Shown here piece by piece: positions 2 through 22,086 of a stretch of 48,770 bases of DNA. The notes under the pieces are model-generated. The model was not told where the DNA came from. It did not search any database and worked only from the letters and a program-made list of their open reading frames with translations. Position 1 is the first letter of the stretch; every line of letters begins with the position of its first letter. A program made the position numbers and the translations under genes. Source of the stretch: Candidatus Falkowiibacteriota bacterium (GTDB lineage: Bacteria; Patescibacteriota; Patescibacteriia; Patescibacteriales; VMTK01); the NCBI GenBank assembly GCA_013791585.1, contig VMTK01000057.1, forward strand, positions 1-48,770, written 5' to 3'.

Positions 2-3000
2 AGCACAACGCATACATGGGCGGACGCTTATGTGGACAATGACATAACTTTGGATAATATCACCCAAATAACAAGCAGGGCAATATCAGACACAACAGGA
101 ACTTTGCAGATCAGCAGAGGCGGCACCGGCTTAACTTCATTTACCGCTGGCGATTTAATCTATGCTTCGGCTGACAATACTTTAGCCGCGCTGGCATCCT
201 CCACCGGCGGATATGTTTTGAGTATTGACTTTACAACAGGCCAGCCGACATGGACTGCCACCAGCACTTGGGATACCACCTATACTGCCGGCGACCATTT
301 GACTTTGACCGGAACTGATTTTGATGTTGATGATGATTTCTTATTGAATACCGGGGATACTGCCACAGGAGATTATACATTTGACACAGACACTTTAGTT
401 ATTGACAGCTCAAACAATAGAATAGGCATAGGCACCTCTACCCCATACTCCAAACTAACCATCTGGGGCGATAGCAGTAATTTATTTGAAATATCAAACA
501 GCGCTTCCACCACGCTATTTGTAGTTAATTCTGACGGCGACCTTACAATGACCGGCACTACAACCATGGGCGCGCTTACTTATCCTAACTATGATGGAAC
601 TGCGAATCAAATGCTTTATACGGACGGGAATGGCAGTTTGGCATGGACAAGCACTTCCAGTCTTGGATTGGTTGGCGATGATGACTTTACTTCAAACGGC
701 CTCATGGTCCGCACTGCCGCAGGAACATATACTACCAGAACATTAACAGGCACAGCCAATCAAATAACCATTGCCAACGGCGACGGCGTATCAGCCGCTC
801 CGACTTTTTCACTGCCAAGCCTTGTTTATCTGGGAACAGCCGGCAAACTAGGCAGGGATGCTGATAATTTGATTGACTTTTCAACCGACAACCAATTAAC
901 ATTCAGAACAAATGCCACAGACCAGATGGTGCTGAACTCCAGCGGGTATTTGGGAATCGGCTCGTCCACGCCTTATTATAAACTATCCATTCAAGGATCA
1001 GGCAATCTTCTGCGGATCGCCACCAGCACAGGCGCGATATTTACTGTGACAGATTCGCAGATTACCTCAAATGTGCCGCACAGCTTTACCGGCTCCGGGG
1101 ATGTTGATATTGCCAATGACTTATATTTCTCCAACCCAAGCTCGGCTAACATTACATCTTACGGGCCGCTTTATATCACTTCCGGCGACCCGGGCACGAA
1201 CACCAGCTTGTATCTGGAAGGCCGAGGCACAGGAGTGGTGTATGTTGATGATTATTTGACCGTGACCGGCACTTCCAGCTTGGCCGGCTTGCTGTACGCG
1301 AATTATTATACCGGCAATGTAGGCATCGGCACCAGTTCGCCATTGGCAAGATTATCCATACAAGGCGCGTCCGGCTCTGACGCTTTATTCGCGCTGGCAT
1401 CTTCCACCGGAGCCAATCTGTTGACCATTGATTCTTTGGGCAATGTGGGAATTGGCACCACAACTCCAACGCAAAAATTATCCACCAATGGCTTAATGTA
1501 TATCGGAGGAACAGGGACTTCCACTATTGAAAATAATTTGGAAATACTGGGCGCGTTTGACGCTGGCGGATTGTATATCAATAGCTCGGGAGTTGTGACA
1601 GCCGGAACATGGCAGGGAACAGCTATTGGCACAGCTTATGGCGGCACTGGCCAGGACTTCTCCGGCTCAACCGGATTTATGTATTTGTCATCCGGAACAG
1701 CCAGCGCCAGCTCTACAATCCATATCGGCAATACTGATTTAATCGCCGGCACAGGACTTACATTAACCAGTGCCACATTAACAATGGATGAGTTTACCAT
1801 GGGCGCGACTGACACTGACGCTACGGCCGGATCCGTGTTCTTCGCCGGAACATCAGGAGTTCTTCAGCAGGATAATGATAATTTCTTTTGGGATAATACG
1901 AATAAAAAATTAGGCATCGGCACCACTTCACCATTAACTAAATTAACCGTTCAAGGCACAGCCGGACAGCCGGTTATGAATATTGCTTCCTCAACAGGAG
2001 CGAGTTTATTATATGTGAGCGAGAGCGGGAATGTGGGGATTGGGACGGCGAGTCCAAGCTCAAAATTCTCTGTTTCTGGCGACGGCTACATTACAGGAGG
2101 GCTTGGAGTTGGCGTTGTAAATACTACTGCCGGTACGGCTATCATTAATGGCGCCTACGTTGGAGCATTGCAAGTTCCTTATGGGTCAATTGTTACTCCG
2201 AGTGGCGGATCAGCATCTAATCCTTCTTATGCATTTTATAGCGATACGAATACCGGGATAAACAATCCGGCGGCGGAAAACCTTTCTTTTATCACGAACG
2301 CGGTTGAACGAGTTCGGATTGATGCTTCCGGCAATGTCGGCATAGGCACCACTTCTCCATACTCCAAACTAACCATCTGGGGCGACGGGACTTCCGGGGC
2401 GTCCGCGTTTGAAGTGGTGGATAGCGCTAGCTCCACTCTGTTTACTGTTTTAGACAATGGGAATGTCGGCATCGGCAGCACTAGCCCGGCTACTTATTTG
2501 TCAGTGGCTGGCAGCGGCTACTTTACCGGCGGCCTGGGCGTGGGAATGCTTAATACTTCGGCAGGGACTTTAAATGTTTCAGGCCAGTGCGTTACCGGAG
2601 ATACCCGCCTTCGCCGAAGACGCAAAAAGAAAGCCGGCGAACACGCTGACGAAGAAGCAGGCGAATGGGAAGATGATGAGTATATTTATGATGAAGTGAT
2701 GATAAAAAATATCCAGCCGGGCGATGAAATCGCGTCAATGGATCCGATAACCGGCGAGCTTGTGTATTCACAAGTTAATGGCTTGATGGATATGGGAATT
2801 AAACAAATTTATCAATTGACCACGCAGTCAGGAAGGCAAATTCGCACAACAGAAAATCATCCGTATTTTGTCCGCTCTAAATACGAAGAAGCGGACGCGA
2901 AGCAAAATCAAAAGCTTTATCGCTTTGAAGTGGATCAGTCAATTAGAATTGAACAATACACAAAAGATACAATTATCGCAATCGCTAACGCGGAAAATGA

Positions 3001-6000
3001 ATTTTCAGTTGTAATTCCGCGCAAAGTAAAACAGATTTTGCGGGATGATTTGCGGCAGTATAACCCCAAAAAATTTACCCCGATAATGTTTGCTTCCGGC
3101 ATAGTTTCCGCGATTGAACAATCTAAATTGACTGTTCATGAATTAGCGATTGATATTGAATATCCAGGACACGAGGATTTAATTACAGAAATAATTTTAA
3201 ACACTTTCCCGCAAATTGAAATAAACTTTATTCAAATTGGGAAAAAATCACCAGCGCATTATTACGCTTATGGAACGCATAAAAAAGAAAAAACCGCGGA
3301 TTATGCCGCGGATATTAATGATATTGCTTATAAAACAGAAAACGCCCTCAGAACTGTTACACATTCGCACATTCGTCGAACGATTCGCAGCCCACAGGCG
3401 TTTCTTATTAACAGTATAGATGATAAGAAAAAACTTGTCAACCCCGCACCTTTTGAGCAGAGCATCTTTGATTCTGGATATTCAACATCAGATAATATTG
3501 AACAACTGCTCAAAAGGTGCGGGGTCAAGGGTCAAACAGAAAACGCCCTCAGAACTGGTGCACATCCGCACATTCGTCGGACGATTCACAGCCCACAGGC
3601 GTCTCTTGTTAATAGTATAAATGATAGCGCAAAACTTGTAAACCCCGTTCCAAATTTTACAGAAAATCATACTGCGGATAAATTATCTCATGCAAATGAG
3701 GCAGTTAATGCTGGCAAACAGGATTGTAAAATTTGGAACGGGGTAAAGAGCGGAAAATGGAAAAAAGTTAAAGAACTTAAAAAAGGGCAGATGATTGCTG
3801 TTGCGTATGGCGATAAAGTTGTTTGGGAAAAAATAACCAAAATAAAACAGCAGGATGCTGAACGGGTTTATGACATTGAAGTGGAAGGAACCCGCAATTT
3901 TGTGGCAAATGGAATCATAGCGCATAATACTTATTTGGGCGGAAATACAGGCATAGGCACGAGTTCGCCATTGGCAAGATTATCCATACAAGGCGCGTCC
4001 GGCTCTGACGCTTTATTCGCGCTGGCGTCTTCCACCGGAGCCAATCTGTTGACAATTGATTCTCTGGGCAATGTGGGGATTGGCACCACAACGCCAACGC
4101 AAAAACTATCCACTGACGGTCTTATGTATATTGGCGGCACAGGCACTTCAACCATTGAAAATAATTTGGAAATATTGGGCGGGCTTGACGCCGGCGGATT
4201 ATATATTAATAGTTCAGGAGTTGTGACAGCCGGAACATGGCAGGGTACCGCTATTGGCGCGGCTTACGGCGGCACCGGCTTAACTTCTTTCACCGCGGGC
4301 GATTTAATTTATGCTTCAGCTGACAATACTTTGGCCAGTTTAGCATCCTCCACTAGCGGATATGTTTTGAGCATTGATTTTTCAACCGGCCAGCCGTCTT
4401 GGATTGCCACCAGCTCTTGGGATACCACATACACTGCCGGCGACCATTTGACTTTGACCGGAACTGATTTTGATGTTGATGATGATTTCTTATTGAATAC
4501 CGGGGATGACGCTACAGGAGATTATACATTTGACACAGACACTTTAGTTATTGACAGTTCAAACAATAGAATAGGAATAGGCACCTCAACTCCATACTCC
4601 AAACTAACCATCTGGGGCGACGGGACTTCCGGCCAGCCGGCGTTTAGCGTGGTGGATAGCGCCAGCTCTACTTTGTTTACTGTTTTGGATAATGGGTATG
4701 TGGGGATTGGGACGGCGGCGCCAGTAGAGACTCTACATACTGTAGGTACAGGATATTTTGAGGGAAGTAATGGTTATGACATTAGAATCGCAGACTCCTC
4801 ATCCGGTGGTTTTATAGATTTTGGAATTTGGAATTCGACTAATGGCATCGTTGCGGGAAGAATATTGGGTAACGATGATGGAGATGGTCAATCAGGTAAG
4901 CTGTCATTCTTTACACACGCAGATGCTAGTGGAGTTGAGAATTTATTGGAAAGAATGAGAATAGACAATTCCGGCGACGTCGGTATCGGAGACACTGATC
5001 CAGACGCTTTATTAGAAATATCCGCAAGCGCAGGAGCAAGTGATTTATTCATGCTTTCAAGCGATGATGCAAATGATGGTGATTTATTTATAGTAAAGAA
5101 TTCCGGCAACATCGGCATCGGAACCACAACCCCATACTCCAAGCTAACCGTCTGGGGCGATAGCAGTAATTTATTTGAAATATCAAACAGCGCTTCCACC
5201 ACGCTATTTGTAGTTAATTCTGACGGCGACCTTACAATGACCGGCACGACAACCATGGGCGCGCTTACTTATCCTAATTATGACGGCACAGCCAATCAAA
5301 TGCTTTACACTGACGGATCAGGCAGTTTGGCGTGGACAGGCACTTCCACTCTTGGATTGGTTGGCGACGATGACTTTACTTCAAACGGCCTCATGGTCCG
5401 CACTGCGGCAGGAACATATACTACCAGAACATTGACCGGCACAGCCAATCAAATAACTATTACCAACGGCGACGGCGTATCAGCCGCTCCGACTTTTTCA
5501 CTGCCAAGCATTGTTTATCTTGGCACCGCGGGCAAATTAGGCAGGGACGCGAATGATTTGTTTGATTTTACTACTGCCGGACAGATTACTTTTAGGACCA
5601 ATAACTCTAATAACATGATCTTAAATTCAAGCGGATACTTAGGAATCGGCACAACCACTCCGGAAAACGCTTTAACTGTTTTATCCGCTGACGGCGCACA
5701 AATGCGGCTTAGTTATGACGCTGATAATTATGTTGAGTTTACCGTGGATAGCGCGGGGCAGTTAGCGATCGGCTCGGCTACTACAACGATTGGTTCCGGC
5801 AGTGAAGTATTGCGCATTACTGGCGGCAACGTCGGCATAGGCACCTCTACCCCATATTCAAAACTAACCATCTGGGGCGACGGGACTTCCGGCCAGCCGG
5901 CGTTTAGCGTGGTGGATAGCGCCAGCTCTACTTTGTTTACTGTTTTGGATAATGGCTATGTCGGCATAGGCACTGCCAATCCAAGCTATAATTTGGAAGT

Positions 6001-8164
6001 TGTCGGCACGGTGAGCTTTGGATCCGCTTCAGGAGGCGATATTCTGTTTGACACCACCACTATTACCACTCCGGTTTTGATCGGCATAGGGACCAGCACT
6101 CCGGACGCGGATTTGACAATTGTAAGCGATCAGGTTAATTCCAATACTAATTTATTTACGATAGCCACCAGCACCAGTGGCAGTGATGTGGTGGACAGAA
6201 AATTCGCTGTTGATTCTGACGGGGATATTTTCTATGACGGCTCGGCGTACAGTCCGGCCGCCGACTACGCGGAATATTTCTACACAGTTGATACTGATCT
6301 GGAATCAGGCGAAGCGGTATGCGTTGACATTACAAAAGAAAACGCGGTCAAGAGATGCGACCGCGCGGCTGACGGAAATCTAATGGGCATAGTTTCAACA
6401 AAGCCGGCGATAGTCGGAAACGCTATTCCTTCCCTCACCCCCGGCCCCTCTCCCGCCACTGCTGTTTCGGGCGAGGGGAGCTCGTATGTCATAGTTGGTT
6501 TGCTGGGGCAGGTTCAGGCAAAGGTTAGCACGGAAAATGGGGAAATAAGGCCTGGGGATAGTTTGACCTCCGCGTCTTCCACGCCGGGCTATGTGATGAA
6601 AGCCGGGGCCGGTGATCCTACGGTGGGGATTGCGCTTTCTTCCCTCACCCCCGGCCCCTCTCCCACAACTGCGGTTGCGGGCGAGGGGGGCTCGTTTGCC
6701 ACGGGTGTTATTAATGTTCTTATCTCCCGCCGAAACAAGAGTTTGACTGTGGAGATAGTTGAGCAGAAGATTACGGATCGGATTGCGGCGATGGAGATTG
6801 AGGATGAAGTTAATATTTTGATAGCTAACGCGGTTAATAATTTAAACTTGGATGATGAAATTTCAGGATTGCTTGATCCAAAATTGCTGATGTTGACCGC
6901 GAAATTGACCGTAACAGCGGATGATTTGACAGGGCGGATTAGCAGTATAAACGACGAGTTATTAGTTATTAGTTATAAGTTATTGGATTTGGATAATGAA
7001 TTTGGAATTATGAATTATGAATTAGGAATTATGAATAATAAATTATTAGATCACGAATCAAGAATTATGAATTATGAATCAGGGATTTCTGTTGATGAAG
7101 ATGGGAATGTTAAGATGGGGAACATAACCTCACCCCAGCCCTCTCCTTACGAAGGAGAGGGTGCCGAGCCGGGCGAGGCGGGTGAGGTTGCTGTTGTTGA
7201 AATAATCACAGCGACGACAACCAGCCAGACCGCGTTTGTGATAAATCAGCAAGGGGATGGGGATGTGGCTGATTTCCGCGCGGACGGGGTTAGCATTGTT
7301 AATATCGCGGACACCGGCAAAGTGACGATCATCGGCGAAATGCTGGTGGACGGCAGGATAATGGTCTGCTCCGGATCCGGCTGCGGATCCGCGCTGGACG
7401 AGCGGGTTGACGGAACAATGGGCGACATGGGCGTGGAAGGAACAGTTGTCGCCGGGGCGTTTGAAGGGTATTGCGATGACGGATTTGTCTGGGTTCCGGG
7501 TTCGGCGAAGTATGGGACATTGCCTGGGTTCTGCGTTATGATTTCCCTCACCCCCGACCCCTCTCCCGCCACTGCGGTTGCGGGCGAGGGGAGCTTGCCT
7601 GAAGAAGTTTGGGTGAATGTCTCACAAGGCGAGGCGATGATGGCTTGCCAGGGGCTGGGTGATAATTATCATTTGATATCAGAAAATGAGTGGCTGACGA
7701 TTGCGGAAAATATTATCAGGGTTGCGGATAATGACATTGATGAAGAAACTGAAGGATTGCAGTTGGCGACATCTACCCTCACCCCCGGCCCCTCTCCCGC
7801 CACTGCGGTTGCGGGCGAGGGGAGCGCGACTTCTTCGGTTAGCTATGTTTTGACAAACGGCAATGTTATATATGATTTAGTTGGCGCTGTGTCAGAATGG
7901 ACTGATCAGACTGTAACGCGCGCTGGGTTAATCCAGCCGATAAGCGATGAGTGGCAGGAGTATTATGAGATTGAAAATTACAACGGATTTAATATCGCGC
8001 CGCCGTATTACTATACTTCCGTTAATGGAATTGGCAAGATAAAGACAGGCGATAACGGGCTTGGCTTGCGGGGATTTGTCCGCGGCTATAACGGAATTTA
8101 CAGTTTAGACTTGAGCCATTCGATTGACGCGATGGATGATGTCGGGTTCAGGTGCGCGAGGTAA
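2..8164 (+). CDS. Giant fibre-like surface protein, 5'-partial, intein-containing
   Basis: The reading frame is open from the window edge, so the gene begins upstream and the GTG at 32 is not a convincing start. The protein is a long chain of repeats of the type GNVGIGT(S/T)(S/T)P..KL(S/T)I.G, typical of phage-tail-fibre-like and CPR surface proteins and expected to form an elongated beta structure. Large blocks are duplicated: about 282-840 matches about 4430-5520, and 1310-1640 matches 3945-4260. An intein occupies 2588-3928. Near the C-terminus, after a coiled-coil-like stretch, ACQGLGDNYHLISENEWLTIA, GAVSEWTD and the final DVGFRCAR resemble formylglycine-generating-enzyme/DUF1566-like C-type lectin folds. 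Five palindromic repeats insert peptides such as LTPGPSPATAVAGEGS in frame between 6431 and 7824. Surface adhesion or attachment is an inference from architecture only. Confidence 0.85.
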   Translation, partial: STTHTWADAYVDNDITLDNITQITSRAISDTTGTLQISRGGTGLTSFTAGDLIYASADNTLAALASSTGGYVLSIDFTTGQPTWTATSTWDTTYTAGDHLTLTGTDFDVDDDFLLNTGDTATGDYTFDTDTLVIDSSNNRIGIGTSTPYSKLTIWGDSSNLFEISNSASTTLFVVNSDGDLTMTGTTTMGALTYPNYDGTANQMLYTDGNGSLAWTSTSSLGLVGDDDFTSNGLMVRTAAGTYTTRTLTGTANQITIANGDGVSAAPTFSLPSLVYLGTAGKLGRDADNLIDFSTDNQLTFRTNATDQMVLNSSGYLGIGSSTPYYKLSIQGSGNLLRIATSTGAIFTVTDSQITSNVPHSFTGSGDVDIANDLYFSNPSSANITSYGPLYITSGDPGTNTSLYLEGRGTGVVYVDDYLTVTGTSSLAGLLYANYYTGNVGIGTSSPLARLSIQGASGSDALFALASSTGANLLTIDSLGNVGIGTTTPTQKLSTNGLMYIGGTGTSTIENNLEILGAFDAGGLYINSSGVVTAGTWQGTAIGTAYGGTGQDFSGSTGFMYLSSGTASASSTIHIGNTDLIAGTGLTLTSATLTMDEFTMGATDTDATAGSVFFAGTSGVLQQDNDNFFWDNTNKKLGIGTTSPLTKLTVQGTAGQPVMNIASSTGASLLYVSESGNVGIGTASPSSKFSVSGDGYITGGLGVGVVNTTAGTAIINGAYVGALQVPYGSIVTPSGGSASNPSYAFYSDTNTGINNPAAENLSFITNAVERVRIDASGNVGIGTTSPYSKLTIWGDGTSGASAFEVVDSASSTLFTVLDNGNVGIGSTSPATYLSVAGSGYFTGGLGVGMLNTSAGTLNVSGQCVTGDTRLRRRRKKKAGEHADEEAGEWEDDEYIYDEVMIKNIQPGDEIASMDPITGELVYSQVNGLMDMGIKQIYQLTTQSGRQIRTTENHPYFVRSKYEEADAKQNQKLYRFEVDQSIRIEQYTKDTIIAIANAENEFSVVIPRKVKQILRDDLRQYNPKKFTPIMFASGIVSAIEQSKLTVHELAIDIEYPGHEDLITEIILNTFPQIEINFIQIGKKSPAHYYAYGTHKKEKTADYAADINDIAYKTENALRTVTHSHIRRTIRSPQAFLINSIDDKKKLVNPAPFEQSIFDSGYSTSDNIEQLLKRCGVKGQTENALRTGAHPHIRRTIHSPQASLVNSINDSAKLVNPVPNFTENHTADKLSHANEAVNAGKQDCKIWNGVKSGKWKKVKELKKGQMIAVAYGDKVVWEKITKIKQQDAERVYDIEVEGTRNFVANGIIAHNTYLGGNTGIGTSSPLARLSIQGASGSDALFALASSTGANLLTIDSLGNVGIGTTTPTQKLSTDGLMYIGGTGTSTIENNLEILGGLDAGGLYINSSGVVTAGTWQGTAIGAAYGGTGLTSFTAGDLIYASADNTLASLASSTSGYVLSIDFSTGQPSWIATSSWDTTYTAGDHLTLTGTDFDVDDDFLLNTGDDATGDYTFDTDTLVIDSSNNRIGIGTSTPYSKLTIWGDGTSGQPAFSVVDSASSTLFTVLDNGYVGIGTAAPVETLHTVGTGYFEGSNGYDIRIADSSSGGFIDFGIWNSTNGIVAGRILGNDDGDGQSGKLSFFTHADASGVENLLERMRIDNSGDVGIGDTDPDALLEISASAGASDLFMLSSDDANDGDLFIVKNSGNIGIGTTTPYSKLTVWGDSSNLFEISNSASTTLFVVNSDGDLTMTGTTTMGALTYPNYDGTANQMLYTDGSGSLAWTGTSTLGLVGDDDFTSNGLMVRTAAGTYTTRTLTGTANQITITNGDGVSAAPTFSLPSIVYLGTAGKLGRDANDLFDFTTAGQITFRTNNSNNMILNSSGYLGIGTTTPENALTVLSADGAQMRLSYDADNYVEFTVDSAGQLAIGSATTTIGSGSEVLRITGGNVGIGTSTPYSKLTIWGDGTSGQPAFSVVDSASSTLFTVLDNGYVGIGTANPSYNLEVVGTVSFGSASGGDILFDTTTITTPVLIGIGTSTPDADLTIVSDQVNSNTNLFTIATSTSGSDVVDRKFAVDSDGDIFYDGSAYSPAADYAEYFYTVDTDLESGEAVCVDITKENAVKRCDRAADGNLMGIVSTKPAIVGNAIPSLTPGPSPATAVSGEGSSYVIVGLLGQVQAKVSTENGEIRPGDSLTSASSTPGYVMKAGAGDPTVGIALSSLTPGPSPTTAVAGEGGSFATGVINVLISRRNKSLTVEIVEQKITDRIAAMEIEDEVNILIANAVNNLNLDDEISGLLDPKLLMLTAKLTVTADDLTGRISSINDELLVISYKLLDLDNEFGIMNYELGIMNNKLLDHESRIMNYESGISVDEDGNVKMGNITSPQPSPYEGEGAEPGEAGEVAVVEIITATTTSQTAFVINQQGDGDVADFRADGVSIVNIADTGKVTIIGEMLVDGRIMVCSGSGCGSALDERVDGTMGDMGVEGTVVAGAFEGYCDDGFVWVPGSAKYGTLPGFCVMISLTPDPSPATAVAGEGSLPEEVWVNVSQGEAMMACQGLGDNYHLISENEWLTIAENIIRVADNDIDEETEGLQLATSTLTPGPSPATAVAGEGSATSSVSYVLTNGNVIYDLVGAVSEWTDQTVTRAGLIQPISDEWQEYYEIENYNGFNIAPPYYYTSVNGIGKIKTGDNGLGLRGFVRGYNGIYSLDLSHSIDAMDDVGFRCAR
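3334..3642 (+). repeat. Duplicated 108-nt module in the intein
   Basis: Bases 3334-3441 and 3535-3642 encode near-identical peptides (TENALRTVTHSHIRRTIRSP and TENALRTGAHPHIRRTIHSP). They are separated by a mobile hairpin. The copies differ at scattered positions, so the duplication is not brand new. Confidence 0.8.
3442..3524 (+). mobile_element. CCCCG-type mobile hairpin, copy 1 (in the intein)
   Basis: The ends CCCCGCACCTTTTGAGCAG and its reverse complement pair into a long stem. It is flanked by TCAA on both sides (3438-3441 and 3525-3528). Element plus duplication is 87 nt, so the intein frame is kept. Confidence 0.8.
3643..3743 (+). mobile_element. CCCCG-type mobile hairpin, copy 2 (in the intein)
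   Basis: The terminal arms CCCCGTTCCAAATTTTACA and its complement differ from copy 1 beyond the CCCCG core. The flanks are TAAA/TAAA (3639-3642, 3744-3747). Element plus duplication is 105 nt, again a multiple of three. Confidence 0.75.
6431..6691 (+). repeat. Two CCTCACCCC-type palindromic inserts in the fibre gene
   Basis: Copies at about 6431-6481 and 6642-6691 encode SLTPGPSPATAVSGEGS and SLTPGPSPTTAVAGEGG. They have the C-rich left and G-rich right arms of an imperfect hairpin and preserve the reading frame. Confidence 0.8.
7128..7187 (+). repeat. CCTCACCCC...GGTGAGG palindromic insert
   Basis: This longer member encodes TSPQPSPYEGEGAEPGEAGE. Its ends CCTCACCCC and GGTGAGG are complementary, and an inner hairpin (CTCTCCTTacgAAGGAGAG) is visible. 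It is in frame with the fibre gene. Confidence 0.8.
7545..7824 (+). repeat. Two more palindromic inserts within the lectin-like domain
   Basis: Copies at 7545-7593 and 7786-7824 add SLTPDPSPATAVAGEGS and TLTPGPSPATAVAGEGS inside the C-terminal globular domain, probably in surface loops. Confidence 0.8.
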
Positions 8165-8308: not shown

Positions 8309-9346
8309 ATGAAAAAATTTATAAAAAAACCTAAAAAATTTGTCTTAATTTTTATTTTAATTATCGCGGCAATTATCGCGGCAATTATTTTTTATCAAAA
8401 ACTGACAGCGCGCGGAGCTTCTTACGGCTGGGTTCAGACTGATTGGTCCGGCGGAGCGTCCACTACCGCCGCCGCGGTTCATCCCGGAGACGAAACCGGC
8501 TGGACTTATTATTATTCCGCGGATGATGCGATAAGCACGACCACTCCGGGCGAAATCAGCTTGGCTTCCACTACCGCGAGCTGGACTGAAACCGCGACAG
8601 CTGATTTTGACGCGGGAACGCAAAATAGCGTTTACGCGACAAGCGGCGCGGTGTTTCTCTTAAAGCCGGCCGGCGCAGCCTGCTCTTTGAAAACAGAATG
8701 CATTGGAGGGTATTGCAACGGCTCCAGCGCTTGCGACACCTGCGCGTCTTTTACTTATGAAAGCCAAACATACAGCGTAGTGATGGTCGGCGAACAATGC
8801 TGGATGGCGGAGAATTTGAATGTGGGCTCTTCCACGGATAGCGTCAATACGGGTGTAAGCCATAGCGATGTAAGCGATAACAGCATTATTGAAAAATACT
8901 GCTATAATAATAATACTGCCAACTGCGATACTTACGGCGGGTTGTATGACTGGGACGAAATGATGGGTTATGTTGAAACCGCCGGAGTACAAGGGATTTG
9001 CCCAAGCGGCTGGCATATTCCGACTGACGGGGAGCAGTATGAGCTGGAAAATTACTTGAAAAATGACGGTCAGACTTGCAGCGCGAGCAGATCCGGAGCT
9101 TGGGATTGCGCCACTGCCGGAACTAAACTTAAAAGCGGCGGTTCTTCCGGTTTTGAGGGTCTGCTTGCCGGCTACCGCCGCAACACTGGTTCGTTCAATA
9201 ATCTCACCTCTGGCGGCGACTTCTGGTCTTCGTCGGTGTCAGGATCCAATGCGTGGAGCCGGAGCCTGAATTCCACTGAGTCGCGCGTGAACCGCAACGC
9301 GTACTATCAGGCGTACGGCTTTTCTGTCCGCTGTCTCAAGGACTGA
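8309..9346 (+). CDS. DGR variable (target) protein, Fib_succ_major-like lectin fold
   Basis: This 345-residue protein begins with a lysine-rich N-terminus and one hydrophobic segment (about residues 11-30), so it is exported or membrane-anchored. The C-terminal domain (QCWMAENLNVGS, YDWDEMMGY, GICPSGWHIPTDGEQYELE, WSSS, final SVRCLKD) matches the Fibrobacter succinogenes major-paralogue type of C-type lectin fold used by many DGR targets. The last 62 residues are the variable repeat: codons that are AAC in the template at 10788-10972 read Tyr, Arg, Gly, Asp or Ser here. The product is probably a surface-displayed binding protein diversified by the adjacent reverse transcriptase. The ligand is unknown. 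Confidence 0.9.
   Translation: MKKFIKKPKKFVLIFILIIAAIIAAIIFYQKLTARGASYGWVQTDWSGGASTTAAAVHPGDETGWTYYYSADDAISTTTPGEISLASTTASWTETATADFDAGTQNSVYATSGAVFLLKPAGAACSLKTECIGGYCNGSSACDTCASFTYESQTYSVVMVGEQCWMAENLNVGSSTDSVNTGVSHSDVSDNSIIEKYCYNNNTANCDTYGGLYDWDEMMGYVETAGVQGICPSGWHIPTDGEQYELENYLKNDGQTCSASRSGAWDCATAGTKLKSGGSSGFEGLLAGYRRNTGSFNNLTSGGDFWSSSVSGSNAWSRSLNSTESRVNRNAYYQAYGFSVRCLKD
9156..9340 (+). other. DGR variable repeat (VR)
   Basis: It aligns without gaps to the template repeat at 10788-10972 (offset 1632). I count 13 mismatches, of which 12 fall on adenines of the template (for example AAC to TAC, CGC, GGC, GAC, AGC). One is a T-to-G change at 9238. The last 24 bases are identical and would be the initiation site of mutagenic homology. 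The first base after the aligned block also differs (G here, C in the template). Confidence 0.95.
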
Positions 9347-9350
9347 TTCG

Positions 9351-9380
9351 ACTATTTGACTATTTGACTATTTGACTATT
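9351..9380 (+). repeat. Octanucleotide tandem repeat TTTGACTA
   Basis: About three and a half copies of an 8-nt unit lie directly behind the stop codon of the DGR target gene. Confidence 0.8.
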
Positions 9381-9427
9381 ATTTTAGAAATAACAAATAA
9401 CAAATATCAAATAAATTCAAAATAACA

Positions 9428-9790
9428 ATGACCAAAATTCAAAACAAAATTTATGACTTGGAAGATAGGACTAGAGAATTTGCTATTAATGTGCGGAAAT
9501 TTTTAAAAAAGCTGCCGAAAACCATTAGCAATATTGAGGATGGTAAGCAGGTAGTACGTTCAAGCGGATCTGTGGGAGCCAACTATATTGAAGCCAACGA
9601 AGCATTAAGCAAAAAGGATTTTAAGATGAGAATTAAGATTAGCAGAAAAGAGGCTAAAGAAAGCAGTTATTGGTTAAAGATAATTGTTGTTAACAATGAT
9701 GTCCGGTTTGAAGCAGAAGGTCGAGCGCTAATTCAGGAAGCTGAAGAATTAAAGAAAATTTTTTGTTCAATACTGGAAAAGTCTAAATAG
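9428..9790 (+). CDS. Four-helix bundle protein (S23/IVS family)
   Basis: This 120-residue helical protein has the conserved VRSSGSVGANYIEANEALSKKDF...RKEAKESSYWL pattern of the four-helix bundle family, first known from 23S rRNA intervening sequences and related to DGR Avd proteins. It sits between the DGR target gene and the Avd-like gene. It may be a second accessory factor or an unrelated family member. The ATG at 9428 follows an AT-rich leader with no clear Shine-Dalgarno site, and the start of the gene is partly duplicated at 9853-9963. Confidence 0.75.
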   Translation: MTKIQNKIYDLEDRTREFAINVRKFLKKLPKTISNIEDGKQVVRSSGSVGANYIEANEALSKKDFKMRIKISRKEAKESSYWLKIIVVNNDVRFEAEGRALIQEAEELKKIFCSILEKSK

Positions 9791-9852
9791 TTTTGGTCAT
9801 TATAGTTTTGGTCATTTTTAAAACTGCGGAGAGATTGTGGCGGGGCAGGACA

Positions 9853-9963
9853 GAAATAACAAATATCAAATCACAAATAACAAATAAATTCAAAATAACA
9901 ATGACCGAAATTCAAAACAAAATTTATGACTTGGAAGAAATGAATAATAGTTTTGGTCATTGA
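9853..9963 (+). pseudogene. Truncated copy of the leader and start of the four-helix gene
   Basis: The stretch repeats the leader and first 12 or so codons of the gene at 9428 (MTEIQNKIYDLEE), then runs into the gene's own 3' flanking sequence and stops at 9963. It looks like a duplication with internal deletion. Confidence 0.7.
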
Positions 9964-10068
9964 GATTTTAAATTTTGAATTTATTTGATATTTGAGATTT
10001 GTGATTTGGGTTTTAATAATTTTTGGCGCTTGAGATTTGGAATTTAATTATCTATCGTTTAAGAATAT

Positions 10069-10410
10069 ATGACACTTTATTATTACTTACCAGTTTACAA
10101 AGCAAGCTATGATTTGCTCGTAGAAATTTTTCAATTTACCAAAAATTTTTCGCGGGAATACAAATATACGATCGGACAGGATTTAAAAAAACAAACAACT
10201 GAAATGATTTTGAATATTTATCGGGCTAATAGTACTTATACTAAAAAAGAGATTATTCAAAAAGCGCGGGAAAATATTGAGGTGATCCGTTTGTTGATGC
10301 GGTTGCTTAAAGATTTAAAGCAAGTAAATATTAAAAAATTTGTTCAGATTAATGAATTAATAGAATCGGTTTCTAAACAATTAACAAAGTGGCAAGGGGT
10401 GAATAGTTGA
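10069..10410 (+). CDS. avd: DGR accessory protein Avd-like (four-helix bundle)
   Basis: This 113-residue, strongly basic helical protein (LPVYKASYDLLVEIFQFTKNFSREYKYTIGQDLKKQ, RENIEVIRLLMRLLKDLKQ) matches the Avd-type four-helix bundle. In characterised DGRs Avd forms a basic pentamer that binds the reverse transcriptase and template RNA. Its position directly before the template repeat is the classical one. The ATG at 10069 has no obvious ribosome-binding site. Confidence 0.85.
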   Translation: MTLYYYLPVYKASYDLLVEIFQFTKNFSREYKYTIGQDLKKQTTEMILNIYRANSTYTKKEIIQKARENIEVIRLLMRLLKDLKQVNIKKFVQINELIESVSKQLTKWQGVNS

Positions 10411-10448
10411 TTTATTCTCTTGCCATTTCAACAACCGCTATTTTTCCT

Positions 10449-10597
10449 GTCATCCCGAACCCCCTTTTTTCCTGTTATCCCGAACGGAGCGGAGCGGAGA
10501 GAGGGATCTGCGGACATGACTAAGCGCGCTTGTCATGTTCGCAGATCCCTCGCCTGCGGGCTCGGGATGACAAAAAGGAGAGAGGGCCCGGGATGAC
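10449..10597 (+). repeat. GTCATCCCGA...TCGGGATGAC palindromic repeat
   Basis: A nested inverted repeat has outer arms TGTCATCCCGA and CGGGATGACA and inner arms around GAGGGATCTGCG/CGCAGATCCCTC. Part of the right arm is duplicated at 10586-10597. It is an intergenic repeat type seen in many bacteria. No gene is evident here. Confidence 0.7.
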
Positions 10598-10787
10598 AAA
10601 GAGAGAGGTCTCCCCGCAATGGCAATAAAAGCAATATTGGCCGGAATTATTTTTTGTTAAGGCAAGAATAAGCGAGCCATTTATCAGTCCAATAATCCTC
10701 TTGTTTTGATTATTTAAAGGCAAGGAATTTAATTTCTTATTATCCGCTTTAGGATATTAAGAATATTTAAGCGATTATTTCAGCGGC

Positions 10788-10972
10788 AGGGTCTGCTTGC
10801 CGGCAACCGCAACAACACTGGTTCGTTCAATAATCTCACCTCTAACGGCAACTTCTGGTCTTCGTCGGTTTCAGGATCCAATGCGTGGAACCGGAACCTG
10901 AATTCCACTGAGTCGCGCGTGAACCGCAACGCGAACAATCAGACGAACGGCTTTTCTGTCCGCTGTCTCAAG
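10788..10972 (+). other. DGR template repeat (TR)
   Basis: This noncoding stretch is the near-identical partner of the variable repeat at 9156-9340. It is rich in AAC triplets, which give the widest amino-acid range when adenines are mutagenised. It lies between avd and the reverse transcriptase, in the same orientation as the target. Confidence 0.95.
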
Positions 10973-10983
10973 CACTGGTTTTA

Positions 10984-11015
10984 CCGCAGGGGCATAAAAT
11001 TTTATGCCCCTGCGG
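10984..11015 (+). repeat. Perfect 32-bp palindrome behind the template repeat
   Basis: The arms CCGCAGGGGCATAAAA and TTTTATGCCCCTGCGG pair completely, 11 bases after the TR. It may define the 3' end of the template RNA or act as a terminator or processing hairpin. It contains the upstream ATG at 11004, which argues for the RT start at 11025. Confidence 0.85.
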
Positions 11016-11024
11016 ATACAATCT

Positions 11025-12293
11025 ATGAATTCCAAGAAACTTTTAAATGATTTATTTCAGGCCTATTATGACGCGCGCCGGAACAAAAGAAATACGATTA
11101 GCGCTTTAAAGTTTGAAGTGGATTATGAAAAAAAACTTTTTGAGTTATATGAAGAAATAAGAAATGGAAATTACCAGCCTGGTGAAAGTGTTTGCTTTAT
11201 ATCTTTTTATCCGGTGCAAAGGGAAGTTTTCGCGGCTGATTTCAGGGATAGAATAGTTCATCATTTGATTTACAATTATATCAGCCCTTTGTTTGAGCGC
11301 CAATTTACCCCGCACCTTTTAGGCAGAAGAAACACCTTTAGCCCAAAGAGAGCCAATGGTTCTAATGGAAAATACTGCCCAAAAGGTGCGGGGTTTATTA
11401 ATGACGCGTACAGCTGCCGCGAAGGCAAAGGCACCTCTTACGGCATTAAACGGATAGATCATTTTATCCGCTCCTGTTCCCGCAATTATAAAAAGGATTG
11501 TTATATTTTAAAATTAGACATCAAAGGTTATTTTATGTCTATGGATCGTTTTATTTTGTATGACAAAATAGAAAAAACCTTGCCAAAAATTTCGGGGGGG
11601 GATGTTGATTTTGATATTGGCTTGATATTGTATCTTATCCGCAAAGTAATTTTTCATGATCCGACTAAGCATTGCCGGGTCAAGGGCAAGAAAAGCGATT
11701 GGCAGGGACTGCCGGCGAGCAAAAGCTTATTCTGCGCCAAGCCGAACCAAGGCCTGCCGATCGGCAATCTGACTTCGCAGTTATTCGGCAATGTTTATCT
11801 GAATGATTTTGATCATTTTATTAAATATAATCTCAGAATAAAATATTACGGCCGGTATGTGGACGATATGGTTTTGGTTCATCAGGATAAGGAATATTTA
11901 AGATTTATAATTCCAAAGTTAAAAAAATATCTGCGGGAGAATATTGATCTTGAGCTTCATCCAAACAAAGTTTATCTACAGCATTTTTCCAAAGGCGTAA
12001 ATTTTCTCGGCGTAATAATCAAGCCATATCGCGTTTATATCAGGAACAGAATAAAAGGCAATTTTTATAAAAAGATTAAAGCGTGGAATAATTATCTCAA
12101 GGAAAAGGAAAACAAATTAAGCAAAGAAGAAGCGCGAAAATTTCTATCCTGCGTAAATTCTTATTTAGGCCTAATGAAGCATTATAAAACCCGCAAGATT
12201 CGCCGGAAAATGCTTGCTAAAAATCTGTCAGTTTATTTTTGGAATTATTTTTATATAGCCGAGAATTATAGCAAGCTGGTTTTAAGGGGTTAA
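11025..12293 (+). CDS. DGR reverse transcriptase
   Basis: The enzyme copies the template RNA with adenine-specific errors. Starting at the ATG at 11025 gives MNSKKLLNDLFQAYYDARRNKRN, the usual DGR RT N-terminus. Motifs visible in order are DCYILKLDIKGYFMS, the DGR-typical GLPIGNLTSQLFGNVYLNDFDHF and the catalytic YGRYVDDM (YVDD). A mobile hairpin adds 30 residues between FERQF and INDAYSCREGKGT, in the fingers region, without breaking the frame. Whether this insertion is tolerated is unknown. All catalytic motifs are intact. Confidence 0.93.
   Translation: MNSKKLLNDLFQAYYDARRNKRNTISALKFEVDYEKKLFELYEEIRNGNYQPGESVCFISFYPVQREVFAADFRDRIVHHLIYNYISPLFERQFTPHLLGRRNTFSPKRANGSNGKYCPKGAGFINDAYSCREGKGTSYGIKRIDHFIRSCSRNYKKDCYILKLDIKGYFMSMDRFILYDKIEKTLPKISGGDVDFDIGLILYLIRKVIFHDPTKHCRVKGKKSDWQGLPASKSLFCAKPNQGLPIGNLTSQLFGNVYLNDFDHFIKYNLRIKYYGRYVDDMVLVHQDKEYLRFIIPKLKKYLRENIDLELHPNKVYLQHFSKGVNFLGVIIKPYRVYIRNRIKGNFYKKIKAWNNYLKEKENKLSKEEARKFLSCVNSYLGLMKHYKTRKIRRKMLAKNLSVYFWNYFYIAENYSKLVLRG
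11308..11393 (+). mobile_element. CCCCG-type mobile hairpin, copy 4 (inside the RT gene)
   Basis: The ends CCCCGCACCTTTTAGGCAG and CTGCCCAAAAGGTGCGGGG pair almost fully, and TTTA is duplicated at 11304-11307 and 11394-11397. Element plus duplication is 90 nt, adding 30 codons. Confidence 0.85.
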
Positions 12294-16447: not shown

Positions 16448-18965
16448 TACCTACGGCCACCTTGACCCATGGTACTCCTCTTCTTACCAATACAAGCGTT
16501 CCATTACCCTCAACGCCAGCCAAATCGCCACGACTACGGACGCTTTTCCTGTGCTTGCTACGACTACTTTGGCTGACTTGAAAACTGTTACCAATGGCGG
16601 GAAGGTGGGGAATGATAACGGATATGATATTATCTTTGTGGATGATGACGACGCAACGCTTCTTAATTTTGAAAGGGAGTATTACGCCAGCACTACGGGC
16701 GAGATTGCCTATTGGATAAAGACCGATATTTCAAGCACGACTGACAAGGTGATAAATATGTATTACGGCAATTCAGGGGCGAGCGATGTCTCAACCACAA
16801 CTGGAGTATGGGATGATAATTATGTAATGGTAAATCACCTTGCCCACGATGGAGTGGCGACTACAACCTATCCTGATTTCCTTGACAGCACCCAATACGA
16901 CAACGACGGCTCAAGCATAAATATGAACAGCGATGATTTGGTGGACGGGCAGGTGGATGGGAGTTTGGATTTTGATGGGGCGGACGATGAAATAAATGTG
17001 ATAGATTCAAACAGTTTGGATATTACAACAACTTTTGCTTTATCTGCTTGGATTAAACCAATTTCTATCGGAAACGTTTTAAGAGTTTTTGACAAAAGGA
17101 CGCCAAATAATTACACAGAAAACTACGGGATGGTCATAGAACCCACTGGAGAAGTGTCTTTTAGCTATAATGATACTCTTGCGGTCGCAGGAAATTGGCA
17201 TGCGTATAAATCAACAGTTGCTATAAGTGGGGGTGTTTGGACGCATGCTTTTGTTCAATATACTTCGGCTACCCCTTCAAGCGCAGAAATATATATCAAT
17301 GGAACTAAATGTTCAGGTTCATGGTTTGTTGGTAATGGGAGTTCTGCTTTAATTGCCAACTCGAGTCAAATGACTATTGGTTGGTCAAATTTGGCGCCCC
17401 CTGATGAACAACGTTTTAATGGCCTCATAGACGAAGTCCGTATTTCCAATGTCGCCCGTTCGGCAGGGTGGATTGCTACGGAGTATAATAATCAATCAGC
17501 GGTTGGGGAGTTTTTGACGATAGGGGCGGAGGAATGGGGCGAGCTTGATATCACTACGGCTCCCAAAGTGATAAAAACCGGCGTTGAATCAACCGCTTTT
17601 ACCGTTCAAATTCCGCATAACGCGGTAAGCGATGTTACGGTAAATTTATCCAGCGACTCCTCGGGAACTAATTATTTCGCGTCAACAACCGGCGGGACAG
17701 CGATCACCGCGGTGACGATTCAGACAGGGTCGTCTTCGGTTAATTTTTACTATAAGGATTACAAGCCGGGCGCGCCCACGATCACTGTTGCGGCTGATAA
17801 TTTTACATCTGACACCCAGCAGCAGATGGTGCAGGGGGTTTGGCAAAACACTTCTTACCAATGCCGTAGGCAGATTACCTTGCAAGGCAGTAAAATAGCG
17901 ACAACAACAACCGCTTTTCCCATTTTAGCCACCACCACTCTTGCCGACCTTAAAACAACCGCCAACGGCGGAAAGGTGGGGAATGACAACGGCTATGACA
18001 TTATATTCGTGGACAGCGACGACAGCACTTTGCTTAACTATGAAAGGGAAAAATACGCCTCAACCACGGGCGAAATCGCTTATTGGATTAAGACAGACAT
18101 CGCCAGCTCAACAGACAAAACGATTTATATGTATTACGGCAACGCGGGGGCGAGCGACACGGCGACCACGACAGGGGTTTGGGATAATAATTTTGTGATG
18201 GTTAATCATTTGGCTCATAACGGCATAGCGACCACGACCTATCCTGATTTTAACGACAGCACGAAATACGCCAACAACGGCTCAAGCGTAAATATGAACA
18301 GCGCTGATTTGGTGGACGGGCAGGTGGACGGGAGTTTGGATTTTGACGGGGTGGATGATTATGTGAATGCGGGAACAGGAATAAATACTGCGAATATAGT
18401 TACGGTATCGGCGTGGATTAAAGCAAACTCGCTAACATTGAGGCATGCAATTTATTCATCTCGTGAGGCTTCTGGTGTAGAGGGTTCATTTTTGCTAGAA
18501 GTTGGCACTGGGAATGTAGGCATAAATAGGGTTGCAGTTACAACTCCAGGTATATGGAATTTAGAGACAAATAATAATGCAATATCTGTCGGTAGTTTAT
18601 ATCATATAGCATTTACTAAAAATGGGGCTACACAAAAATTATATATCAATGGTATCTCACAATCTCTTCTAACAGATAATCCACAAACATTTATTGCTAA
18701 CTCCGCTCCAAAAACAATAGGAGTTCAAGGCATCACACTTACACATCCATTTAGTGGCCTCATAGACGAAGTCCGCGTCTCCAACACCGCCCGCACCGCG
18801 GGGTGGATTACTACGGAGTATAATAATCAGAGCAGTGTGGGGAGCTTTATGACAATAGGGGCGGAAGTTTGCATGCCGGTTCCGGCGGAGAGGAGCGGCG
18901 GGGGAGAGAATGTGAAGACGAGGATTAAGGGAGGGGTGAGGTTTAGGGGAGGGGTGAGGTTTTGA
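16401..18965 (+). CDS. C-terminal half of split surface protein: two DUF2341-LamG units
   Basis: The protein repeats one module twice: a DUF2341-like domain (GNDNGYDIIFVD.DD.TLLN.ER, GEIAYWIKTDI, MYYGN.GASD) followed by a concanavalin/LamG-like domain (VDGSLDFDG.DD, SAWIK, GLIDEVR(I/V)SN.AR..GWI.TEYNNQS). A Calx-beta-like linker (KVIKTGVESTAFTVQIPHN) separates the modules. Such proteins are usually extracellular and carbohydrate-binding. The TTG at 16401 is only the first possible start; the natural N-terminus is probably in the preceding ORF. The gene ends in a G-rich repeat (FRGGVRF). Confidence 0.8.
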   Translation: MGAKNPTSDIRHLTSDTYGHLDPWYSSSYQYKRSITLNASQIATTTDAFPVLATTTLADLKTVTNGGKVGNDNGYDIIFVDDDDATLLNFEREYYASTTGEIAYWIKTDISSTTDKVINMYYGNSGASDVSTTTGVWDDNYVMVNHLAHDGVATTTYPDFLDSTQYDNDGSSINMNSDDLVDGQVDGSLDFDGADDEINVIDSNSLDITTTFALSAWIKPISIGNVLRVFDKRTPNNYTENYGMVIEPTGEVSFSYNDTLAVAGNWHAYKSTVAISGGVWTHAFVQYTSATPSSAEIYINGTKCSGSWFVGNGSSALIANSSQMTIGWSNLAPPDEQRFNGLIDEVRISNVARSAGWIATEYNNQSAVGEFLTIGAEEWGELDITTAPKVIKTGVESTAFTVQIPHNAVSDVTVNLSSDSSGTNYFASTTGGTAITAVTIQTGSSSVNFYYKDYKPGAPTITVAADNFTSDTQQQMVQGVWQNTSYQCRRQITLQGSKIATTTTAFPILATTTLADLKTTANGGKVGNDNGYDIIFVDSDDSTLLNYEREKYASTTGEIAYWIKTDIASSTDKTIYMYYGNAGASDTATTTGVWDNNFVMVNHLAHNGIATTTYPDFNDSTKYANNGSSVNMNSADLVDGQVDGSLDFDGVDDYVNAGTGINTANIVTVSAWIKANSLTLRHAIYSSREASGVEGSFLLEVGTGNVGINRVAVTTPGIWNLETNNNAISVGSLYHIAFTKNGATQKLYINGISQSLLTDNPQTFIANSAPKTIGVQGITLTHPFSGLIDEVRVSNTARTAGWITTEYNNQSSVGSFMTIGAEVCMPVPAERSGGGENVKTRIKGGVRFRGGVRF

Positions 18966-18970
18966 ATTTT

Positions 18971-19139
18971 TCCCTCACCCCCGGCCCCTCTCCCGCCACT
19001 GCTGTTGCGGGAGAGGGGAGCTATTTTGAAGAGTTATTTTTAGCAAGAATAAAAAATTACAAAATTAAAAGGGGTGAGGTTTTGAATTTTTCCCTCACCC
19101 CCGGCCCCTCTCCCGCCACTGCTGTTTCGGGAGAGGGGA
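18971..19139 (+). repeat. Two CCCTCACCCCCGGCC inserts in duplicated leader DNA
   Basis: Copies at about 18971-19020 and 19091-19139 each follow GGGGTGAGGTTTTGAATTTT, and similar leaders lie before 20317 and 21421. They form the 5' region of the NYN gene and are probably untranslated. Confidence 0.7.
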
Positions 19140-19177
19140 GGCGTTTTAACTACAAGAATATTTTTAGCAAAAAAATT

Positions 19178-19741
19178 ATGATTTCACAATTTGTTAAAGG
19201 GAAAGTTTATGTTTTTATAGACGCTGAAAATTTATTTTATTCCCAGCGTAATTTAGGGTGGCGCATTTCTTATGAAAAGCTGATGGATTATTTTAAAAAA
19301 GAATGCGGAGAAGCAACAAGATGTTTTGTTTATAAAGGGATTGACGAGAATAATACAGGGCAAAAGAAATTTTTAGATATGCTTGATATTAACGGTTATG
19401 TTTTACGCACAAAAGTGGTTAAAATAATCAAAAATCCAATGGGCAAAAATAAATGGAAAGGCAATCTGGATATAGAATTGGCTTTGGAAATGACCGGATT
19501 AAAAGACAGATATAATACCGCTGTTTTAATTTCCGGAGACAGCGATTTTGCTATTGTTTTAGATCAATTAAAGCAAGCCGGTAAAAATGTTATCGTGATG
19601 TCAACAAGGGGCAGAGTGGCGAAAGAGCTTTTAGAACGGGCAAAATATATTGATTTGCGCAAACTAAAAGATAAAATTGCTCAAAAAAAATCTGGAGCTG
19701 CTCCCTCGCGGGAACACTCCAGAGTGTCATCACATTATTAG
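19178..19741 (+). CDS. NYN-domain (LabA/DUF88) putative ribonuclease
   Basis: The ATG at 19178 gives a 187-residue protein with VYVFIDAENLFYSQRNLGW at the start, WKGNLDIELALEM, TAVLISGDSDFAIVLDQLKQ and VIVMSTRGRVAKELL, the classic NYN/PIN-like motif order with catalytic Asp residues. The frame is open further upstream only because a palindromic repeat is translated there. The C-terminal tail (KSGAAPSREHSRVSSHY) is encoded by the antisense of a small RNA's terminator (19683-19733). A role in RNA cleavage is expected from the family; the target is unknown. Confidence 0.85.
   Translation: MISQFVKGKVYVFIDAENLFYSQRNLGWRISYEKLMDYFKKECGEATRCFVYKGIDENNTGQKKFLDMLDINGYVLRTKVVKIIKNPMGKNKWKGNLDIELALEMTGLKDRYNTAVLISGDSDFAIVLDQLKQAGKNVIVMSTRGRVAKELLERAKYIDLRKLKDKIAQKKSGAAPSREHSRVSSHY
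19683..19733 (-). ncRNA. Small RNA B, convergent with the NYN gene
   Basis: A minus-strand promoter at 19740-19767 leads to about 50 nt that fold into one long hairpin (CTGGAG...TTCCC-GCGA-GGGA...CTCCAG) followed by eight T. The hairpin lacks a T-run on the plus strand, so it serves the minus-strand transcript. Confidence 0.6.
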
Positions 19742-19911: not shown

Positions 19912-20014
19912 CCCCGCACCTTTTAGACAGACCCCGCACCTTTTAGATAGAAATTATATAAACATAAATTTACTAGTGGATACAAAAGTGCGAAACTATC
20001 TAAAAGGTGCGGGG
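19912..20014 (+). mobile_element. CCCCG-type mobile hairpin, copy 5 (abuts the tRNA-like 3' end)
   Basis: The arms CCCCGCACCTTTTAGA and its complement enclose AT-rich DNA, and the left arm is itself duplicated. TGGA is repeated at 19908-19911 and 20015-20018; this tetramer is the 3' end of the tRNA-like gene. Confidence 0.8.
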
Positions 20015-21461: not shown

Positions 21462-22019
21462 ATGCTTAATATTTTTATAGATGAATCAGGAATACATAAA
21501 GCGGTTGATCATTGAACTTTTGCCTTAGCTTATGTTAAAGCTGAGCATCACGATGAAATAGAAGAAAAATTTAAAACAATAGAGCGGGAATTAAAAATTG
21601 ATTATTTCCATTGGTCAAAAACGGTATGGAGAGTAAAAGCAAGATTTATGGATGAAATATTAAAATTGGATTTTGAAGCAAAAATAGCAGTAGTTAAAAA
21701 TCCGATTAATCCCAATAAAGAATTAGAAAAAATATTAAACCACATGATTATAGAAAAAAATATCAGAAATATCTATATTGATAGCAAGAAGCCAAAATGG
21801 TATGAAAGAAATATAAAAAAGATCTTGCGAGACAAAGGGATTTTAGTTAGAAAATTAAAAACCGTTAATGACAATCAATATGCCGGAATTAGATTAGCTG
21901 ATATGATTGCGGGATTATCACGATCATATTTTGATAAGAAAAATTTAAATAAAATTTCCAAATATTATAATAGATTAAAAAAGAAGATTGTTATTATTGT
22001 CCCCGCACCTTTTGAGTAG
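21462..22019 (+). pseudogene. Second DUF3800 gene with in-frame TGA and hairpin-derived end
   Basis: From the ATG at 21462 the protein reads MLNIFIDESGIHKAVDH, then TGA at 21513-21515, then continues in the same frame as TFALAYVKAEHH...IYIDSKKPKWYER...GIRLADMIAGLSRSYF. These are all the DUF3800 signature boxes. A single TCA-to-TGA change would explain it, since Ser is common at this site. The last residues (VPAPFE) and the stop codon come from a mobile hairpin at 22001-22086. It may be a recent pseudogene, or the C-terminal part could be made from the ATG at 21648. A convergent small RNA follows. Confidence 0.7.
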
Positions 22020-22086
22020 AATAGTTATTTTTAGTAAGCAAAATTATTTATTCTATAAAACAAAATACTACTCAAAAGGTGCGGGG
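22001..22086 (+). mobile_element. CCCCG-type mobile hairpin, copy 7 (3' end of DUF3800)
   Basis: The arms CCCCGCACCTTTTGAGTAG and CTACTCAAAAGGTGCGGGG are perfect complements. The flanks share TGT. The element supplies the stop codon of the DUF3800 frame. Without it the frame would end at a TAA a few codons later. Confidence 0.75.

Follow-up and report, generated by a model that had tools for sequence, protein, structure and literature searches.

A palindrome insertion in the reverse transcriptase gene of a patescibacterial diversity-generating retroelement and its candidate GIY-YIG partner

The window considered here, a 48,770-nucleotide (nt) stretch of contig VMTK01000057.1 from a Candidatus Falkowiibacteriota bacterium (Patescibacteriota), carries a complete diversity-generating retroelement (DGR). 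Its reverse transcriptase (RT) gene is interrupted in frame by a short palindrome flanked by a target-site duplication (TSD), a member of a family whose long copies encode a small GIY-YIG nuclease. The cassette and the insertion comprise the following features (template repeat, TR; variable repeat, VR).

8309..9346, + strand: DGR target gene, whose C-terminal Fib_succ_major/FISUMP domain (E 2.5e-32) holds the VR; N-terminal transmembrane anchor predicted by reading
9156..9340, + strand: VR, from the VR/TR alignment
9428..9790, + strand: four-helix gene (23S_rRNA_IVP/TIGR02436) between the VR and avd; by comparison, not a DGR component
10069..10410, + strand: bAvd accessory gene (domain E 2.5e-14), kept in related loci
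10788..10972, + strand: TR, from the VR/TR alignment
10984..11015, + strand: hairpin just 3' of the TR, perfect 14-bp stem (DNA-fold z -7.7)
11022..12293, + strand: DGR RT (RVT_1, YVDD motif), with the palindrome inserted in frame
11304..11307, + strand: left copy of the TSD TTTA flanking the RT palindrome
11308..11393, + strand: mobile palindrome in the RT gene, CCCCGCACCTTTT...AAAAGGTGCGGGG, 86 bp; with one TSD copy, 90 nt or 30 amino acids (aa)
11394..11397, + strand: right copy of the TSD TTTA flanking the RT palindrome

The retroelement and the insertion in its reverse transcriptase

The VR and the TR align ungapped over 185 nt at an offset of 1632 and differ at 13 positions, 12 of which fall on TR adenines (seven A>G, four A>T and one A>C), the remaining one being a synonymous T>G. 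From base composition, 12 or more of 13 mismatches would fall on A with p ~3e-7. All 12 changes at A affect the first or second position of a codon; they change 10 residues, for the most part in AAC/AAT codons. The VR stops six nt short of the end of the open reading frame (ORF) encoding the FISUMP domain, i.e., it is C-terminal in a lectin-fold target. The sequence-only reading of the locus had given the same alignment, mismatch count and adenine bias, and its limits of the target ORF and of the RT end, its Fib_succ_major assignment and its hairpin after the TR were likewise correct. The identical 3' end that it put at 24 nt is present but measures 26 nt (9315-9340), with non-adenine differences after it, an arrangement consistent with the boundary between the initiation of mutagenic homing (IMH) site and IMH*.

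The locus is an ordinary cellular DGR of the Patescibacteria type with adenine-specific mutagenesis, and its target, bAvd and RT genes are intact ORFs. In such a system, the TR RNA would be reverse-transcribed by the RT-Avd complex with errors at A, and the cDNA would replace the VR of the FISUMP-fold surface protein. A genome search returned no further VRs for this TR, and a scan of Viral_contigs with the RT gave no match. Among 98 related genomes, 48 possess an RT match, which bears out, along with the literature (PMC8144416), the earlier remark that DGRs abound in the candidate phyla radiation (CPR). A further 58 RT loci were found in Patescibacteria, Bacteroidetes, Legionella and others, many next to a TR/VR pair biased to adenine in the same way. 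Of 46 related DGR loci, 40 have an Avd homologue and none has a homologue of the gene 9428-9790, so this second four-helix gene is incidental; of the two four-helix genes initially taken for parts of the DGR, bAvd was retained and the other rejected. A hairpin after the TR is frequent but not universal (11/29 related loci vs. a background of ~4%). By sequence and by fold, the closest solved relative of the RT is that of the BPP-1 DGR (8ub7). Cellular CPR DGRs (PMC8144416; structure 8ub7) share with this locus the RT fold and motifs, the A-only TR/VR mutagenesis, Avd and the C-terminal VR in a lectin-like target. They differ from it in lacking the mobile insert of 30 residues in the RT and the unrelated IVP gene inside the cassette; in addition, the target has a predicted membrane anchor here, whereas clade 2 CPR targets are usually without one (PMC8144416).

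The RT carries 30 extra in-frame residues (~95-124), overlooked in the sequence-only reading and absent from every related RT in the multiple alignment; all alignments of the RT with its relatives break at query residues 95/125. The 86 bp of the palindrome and the 4 bp of one TSD copy add up to 90 nt, therefore the frame is kept. As single-stranded DNA, the palindrome folds with z = -6.7. A short mobile palindrome later entered the RT gene in frame, with duplication of TTTA, and its 86 bp, free of stops, added 30 residues, probably in the form of a surface loop. An AlphaFold2 model of the RT (37 sequences) has a mean predicted local distance difference test (pLDDT) score of 87, and the only segment below 50 is the insert (residues 95-120), though a low score is expected there from an alignment without homologues of the insert.

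The A-only differences of the VR prove past mutagenic retrohoming; that it is "active or recent", as had been claimed, is not shown for a cassette with such an insert in its RT. The DGR might even be a relic, its RT inactivated by the insertion and the A-biased VR differences older than that event. The insert is N-terminal, ahead of the FIxDxYxCRxGKGT motif, and unique among relatives, and the second DGR of the genome has its TR broken by a GIY-YIG element (see below). Nevertheless, this reading is somewhat doubtful: the RT frame is kept, the residues invariant in the family, YVDD included, are intact, the modeled core is confident around the floppy loop, and the reading frame of the VR and the target are intact. 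Since the invariant residues are retained and the core is modeled with confidence, the RT with its insert may still work.

A family of palindromes with nuclease-encoding members

Copies of the palindrome were sought by their 13-nt ends, a pattern of fixed spacing being too strict. The 13-nt CCCCGCACCTTTT end occurs 26 times in forward and 27 times in reverse orientation in the 1.34-Mb genome, whereas the reversed pattern, used as a control, gives 0 and 1. Exact direct duplications of 4 bp border 17 of the 29 tabulated copies, when ~0.1 would be expected by chance (base-composition estimate), and mostly follow the pattern TNNA (TTTA/TAAA, TCAA/TTGA, TGGA/TCCA). One copy at window position 19932 and one on contig C42 match exactly over 83 bp, and each lies inside another copy, a sign of recent movement. 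Apart from the RT copy, the window contains the following members.

3442..3524, + strand: intein copy in ORF 32-8164, in frame, TSD TCAA
8186..8247, + strand: intergenic copy just after ORF 32-8164, TSD TTTA
19912..20014, + strand: nested copy; its inner 83 bp equal the C42 copy, outer TSD TGGA
22001..22086, + strand: family member at the 3' end of ORF 21648-22019

The exact family is nearly private to this genome: there are no copies in the same-family genome G001, five end pairs in genome G006, core-end copies in only a few genomes of the same order, and a 19-nt version of the end was found in no other among 380 genomes of the phylum.

Two long copies, of 311 bp (contig C16) and 296 bp (contig C29), encode a protein of 86-89 aa with a GIY-YIG domain between the same CCCCGCACCTTTT ends, and a 297-bp copy with these ends in G006 also encodes a GIY-YIG protein. 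A third copy in the genome, on contig C48, consists of the GIY-YIG gene and one end. These three genes and UvrC are the only carriers of PF01541 in the genome. Between the C29 and C48 genes, the nonsynonymous divergence (dN) is 0.11 and the synonymous divergence (dS) 1.21, hence the protein is kept by purifying selection; its nearest solved structure is that of UPF0213 (1zg2). Short and long copies share terminal inverted repeats and 4-bp TSDs (the 311-bp copy is among the 17 with an exact one), the relationship by which miniature inverted-repeat transposable elements (MITEs) are matched with autonomous partners. The short copies (~60-130 bp) are probably non-autonomous relatives of the ~300-bp GIY-YIG elements.

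The C16 copy resides in the TR of the second DGR of the genome with the TSD GAAC, and the VR of the same DGR displays the empty site. Both further DGRs of the genome are located on contig C16.

L010 (G000:C16:37000-46500), 5842-6152: 311-bp GIY-YIG element in the TR of the second DGR, TSD GAAC
L011 (G000:C16:46501-53566), VR/TR 4890-5464 and RT 5873-6952: third DGR, with a 128-nt VR/TR and 20 mismatches, 19 of them at template A

GIY-YIG clades, their palindromes and the means of movement

GIY-YIG places were collected from related genomes and scored, in family coordinates, for an inverted repeat with a score of at least 13 within 150 bp. Such tight flanks were present at 25 of 81 GIY-YIG places and at 12 of 1409 control intervals (0.85%). 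Two architectures were distinguished: class A spans 286-319 bp (~295 bp) and has lineage-specific ends, and class B spans 361-492 bp and has palindromes of the (C/T)GTCAT.. type. On the protein tree, 3 changes suffice for class A (mean of shuffles 14.1) and 6 for class B (11.5), and none of 500 shuffles went as low; the tree is a short one of 94 columns, with many unresolved forks. On it, the two flank types fall in two separate GIY-YIG clades. The pairing of clades with palindrome types recurs across genomes. The broader notion that inverted repeats surround any CPR GIY-YIG gene was rejected, because a third clade of 24 proteins is without such flanks.

Five genomes carry 17 to 61 copies of a second class A end, ATTYACCCYGTKARATAA, vs. 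at most 1 to 3 for the control. In class B, inverted CGTC..CCA palindromes directly flank the GIY-YIG gene in 11 CPR cases. The relatives of this class are found on replicons of Rhizobium, Sinorhizobium, Azospirillum, Shinella, Sphingobium, Novosphingobium, Aeromonas and Neisseria, and inverted CGTC palindromes lie close on both sides in most of those read, e.g., CGTCATCCCAGGGCTTGACCCTGGGATCCA..TGGATCCCAGGGTCAAGCCCTGGGATGACG in Rhizobium; the CGTC..CCA flanks of this second clade were thus seen in CPR bacteria, rhizobia, Azospirillum, Neisseria and Aeromonas. Within three alphaproteobacterial stretches of 50 kb, CGTC flanks accompany all three GIY-YIG genes and a single one of 120 other coding sequences (an IS4 transposase). 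GIY-YIG genes between inverted CGTC repetitive extragenic palindromes (REPs) were noted at the alphaproteobacterial loci L292, L293, L294, L296, L298, L299 and L301. For CGTC-tagged REPs, in which the same palindrome type is found as around the second GIY-YIG clade, no dedicated transposase has been reported (PMC3733652), and the class B GIY-YIG protein is a candidate enzyme for them; the palindrome in the RT belongs to a different sequence family (class A).

Overall, the palindrome that hit the RT gene of this standard DGR rather likely comes from a family mobilised by its long, GIY-YIG-encoding members. Most likely, the nuclease would recognise the palindromic ends and make a staggered cut for the insertion; it could cut either the palindrome ends or the targets, with host repair completing the process. 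Small palindromes that also enclose the gene for a cognate enzyme are known from the REPtrons and TIRtrons of the RAYT and TIRYT tyrosine transposases, but the enzyme here is of the GIY-YIG type and not an HUH tyrosine transposase. Likewise, a GIY-YIG catalytic domain drives DNA insertion in homing endonucleases and Penelope-type endonucleases, as proposed here, but the element described consists of a nuclease and terminal repeats, has no intron, intein or RT partner and occupies many unrelated target sites.

Several points weigh against this interpretation. Mobilisation by the GIY-YIG protein is an inference from sequence, and such a domain on its own is not known to carry out strand transfer, a task that would fall to host repair or another enzyme. 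In the C48 copy, no second end can be recognised. No consistent TSDs were seen by eye in other class A lineages, clear ones being confined to the CCCCGCACC family. Furthermore, the genome is a single metagenome-assembled one of 73 contigs, though one misassembly cannot explain the copies, since they are spread over many contigs.

The main competing explanation treats the palindromes as plain MITEs that a conventional transposase moves in trans, with the GIY-YIG gene as a passenger or a domesticated rider. DDE elements typically have 4-bp TSDs and terminal inverted repeats; the genome contains one borderline Y1_Tnp gene, and no search for DDE transposases was made. The long copies, for their part, encode the GIY-YIG protein only and no known transposase. 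However, apart from UvrC, the genome has three GIY-YIG genes and all of them are within the element, no copy carries any other gene, and the contig of the Y1 gene (C34) is without a CCCCGCACCTTTT-type end. In other genomes, moreover, GIY-YIG genes are paired with ends of unrelated sequence, and this pairing follows the GIY-YIG phylogeny. In view of this, transport by a conventional transposase seems unlikely, if still a serious contender.

In a broader sense, the tiny GIY-YIG nucleases would be dedicated mobilisers of two large orphan groups of palindromes: the ~295-bp inverted-repeat elements of Patescibacteria with their coding derivatives, and the CGTC-type REPs of Proteobacteria and Patescibacteria, possibly with an extension to Rickettsia via members resembling the Rickettsia palindromic elements (RPEs). 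The chances of this generalisation we regard as evenly balanced. If true, a GIY-YIG gene and its palindromes would form a distinct class of minimal mobile element. For more than a decade, no enzyme has been known for either coding palindromes (in Rickettsia and Wolbachia) or CGTC REPs, and no paper joining GIY-YIG to REPs or coding palindromes was found in the open PMC literature. With clear TSDs and a matching minimal nuclease in one genome, palindrome mobility becomes directly testable, and the same pairing of gene and palindrome exists in culturable rhizobia and Azospirillum.

Coding copies and other features of the window

Thirteen copies are in frame inside genes. Their hosts include the intein of ORF 32-8164, the DGR RT, PrmC, GatB, MiaA, a POR gamma-type subunit, a radical-SAM activase-like protein, riboflavin kinase (RibF), riboflavin synthase (RibE) and two glycosyltransferases, with copies near the gene start in ribosomal protein L4 and an Elp3-like protein. 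When GatB, MiaA and PrmC are aligned with their solved homologues in the PDB, the match is broken at the insert; the other hosts were assigned by Pfam. All 13 lengths equal 2 modulo 3, and the 4-bp duplication brings them to a multiple of 3, a regularity that is partly due to selection, as frameshifting copies would escape recognition as coding. It is proposed that in-frame copies landing in surface loops survive, which would account for their presence in essential genes. The genome also shows how mobile DNA can furnish essential proteins with new loops, as in the DGR RT, and how it can break a DGR by landing in its TR.

The RPEs, reportedly described by Ogata in 2000/2002, behave similarly. 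They are palindromes of ~60-150 bp located in frame in many conserved genes, a behavior summarised in PMC10969869 and PMC2229807, and their target duplication is listed as unknown (PMC2229807). The present family, in contrast, resides in a Patescibacterium, has clear 4-bp TSDs and includes long copies encoding a GIY-YIG nuclease; the likeness is one of behavior only.

Hairpin inserts in coding genes also resemble translational bypassing elements, so the insert might be left untranslated through ribosome bypass or RNA removal in the manner of a byp-like element. This is very improbable: no coding copy contains a stop, and each preserves the frame once a 4-bp duplication is counted, whereas bypass would tolerate stops and frameshifts. 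A reading of the palindromes as regulatory or terminator hairpins of the host and not mobile DNA, as their strong folds and many intergenic copies might suggest, can practically be dismissed in view of the TSDs, the nested insertions, the identical copy on another contig, the in-frame insertions in essential genes and the absence from G001.

Another palindrome, unrelated to the family in the RT, lies within the cassette.

10450..10575, strand not assigned: GTCATCCCGA..TCGGGATGAC-type palindrome between avd and the TR

This long GTCATCCCGA-type palindrome resembles the CGTC-type ends of the class B GIY-YIG elements. An 86-bp truncated copy (92%) of the start region of the IVP four-helix gene (9388-9473) is found at 9861-9946. 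ORF 32-8164 encodes a surface-type repeat protein of 2710 aa, and its intein (residues ~853-1300, recognised by intein motifs) is the part that carries the palindrome. The same ORF contains a different in-frame repeat, CCCTCACCCCCGGCCCCTCTCCCGCC..GGCGAGGGGAG (protein LTPGPSPATAVAGEGS), at window positions 6413-6491, 6623-6701, 7526-7604 and 7757-7835. This repeat also occurs in the NYN-domain ORF 18962-19741, and inserts similar to LTPGPSPATAVAGEGS are present in UvrB- and IleS-like ORFs.

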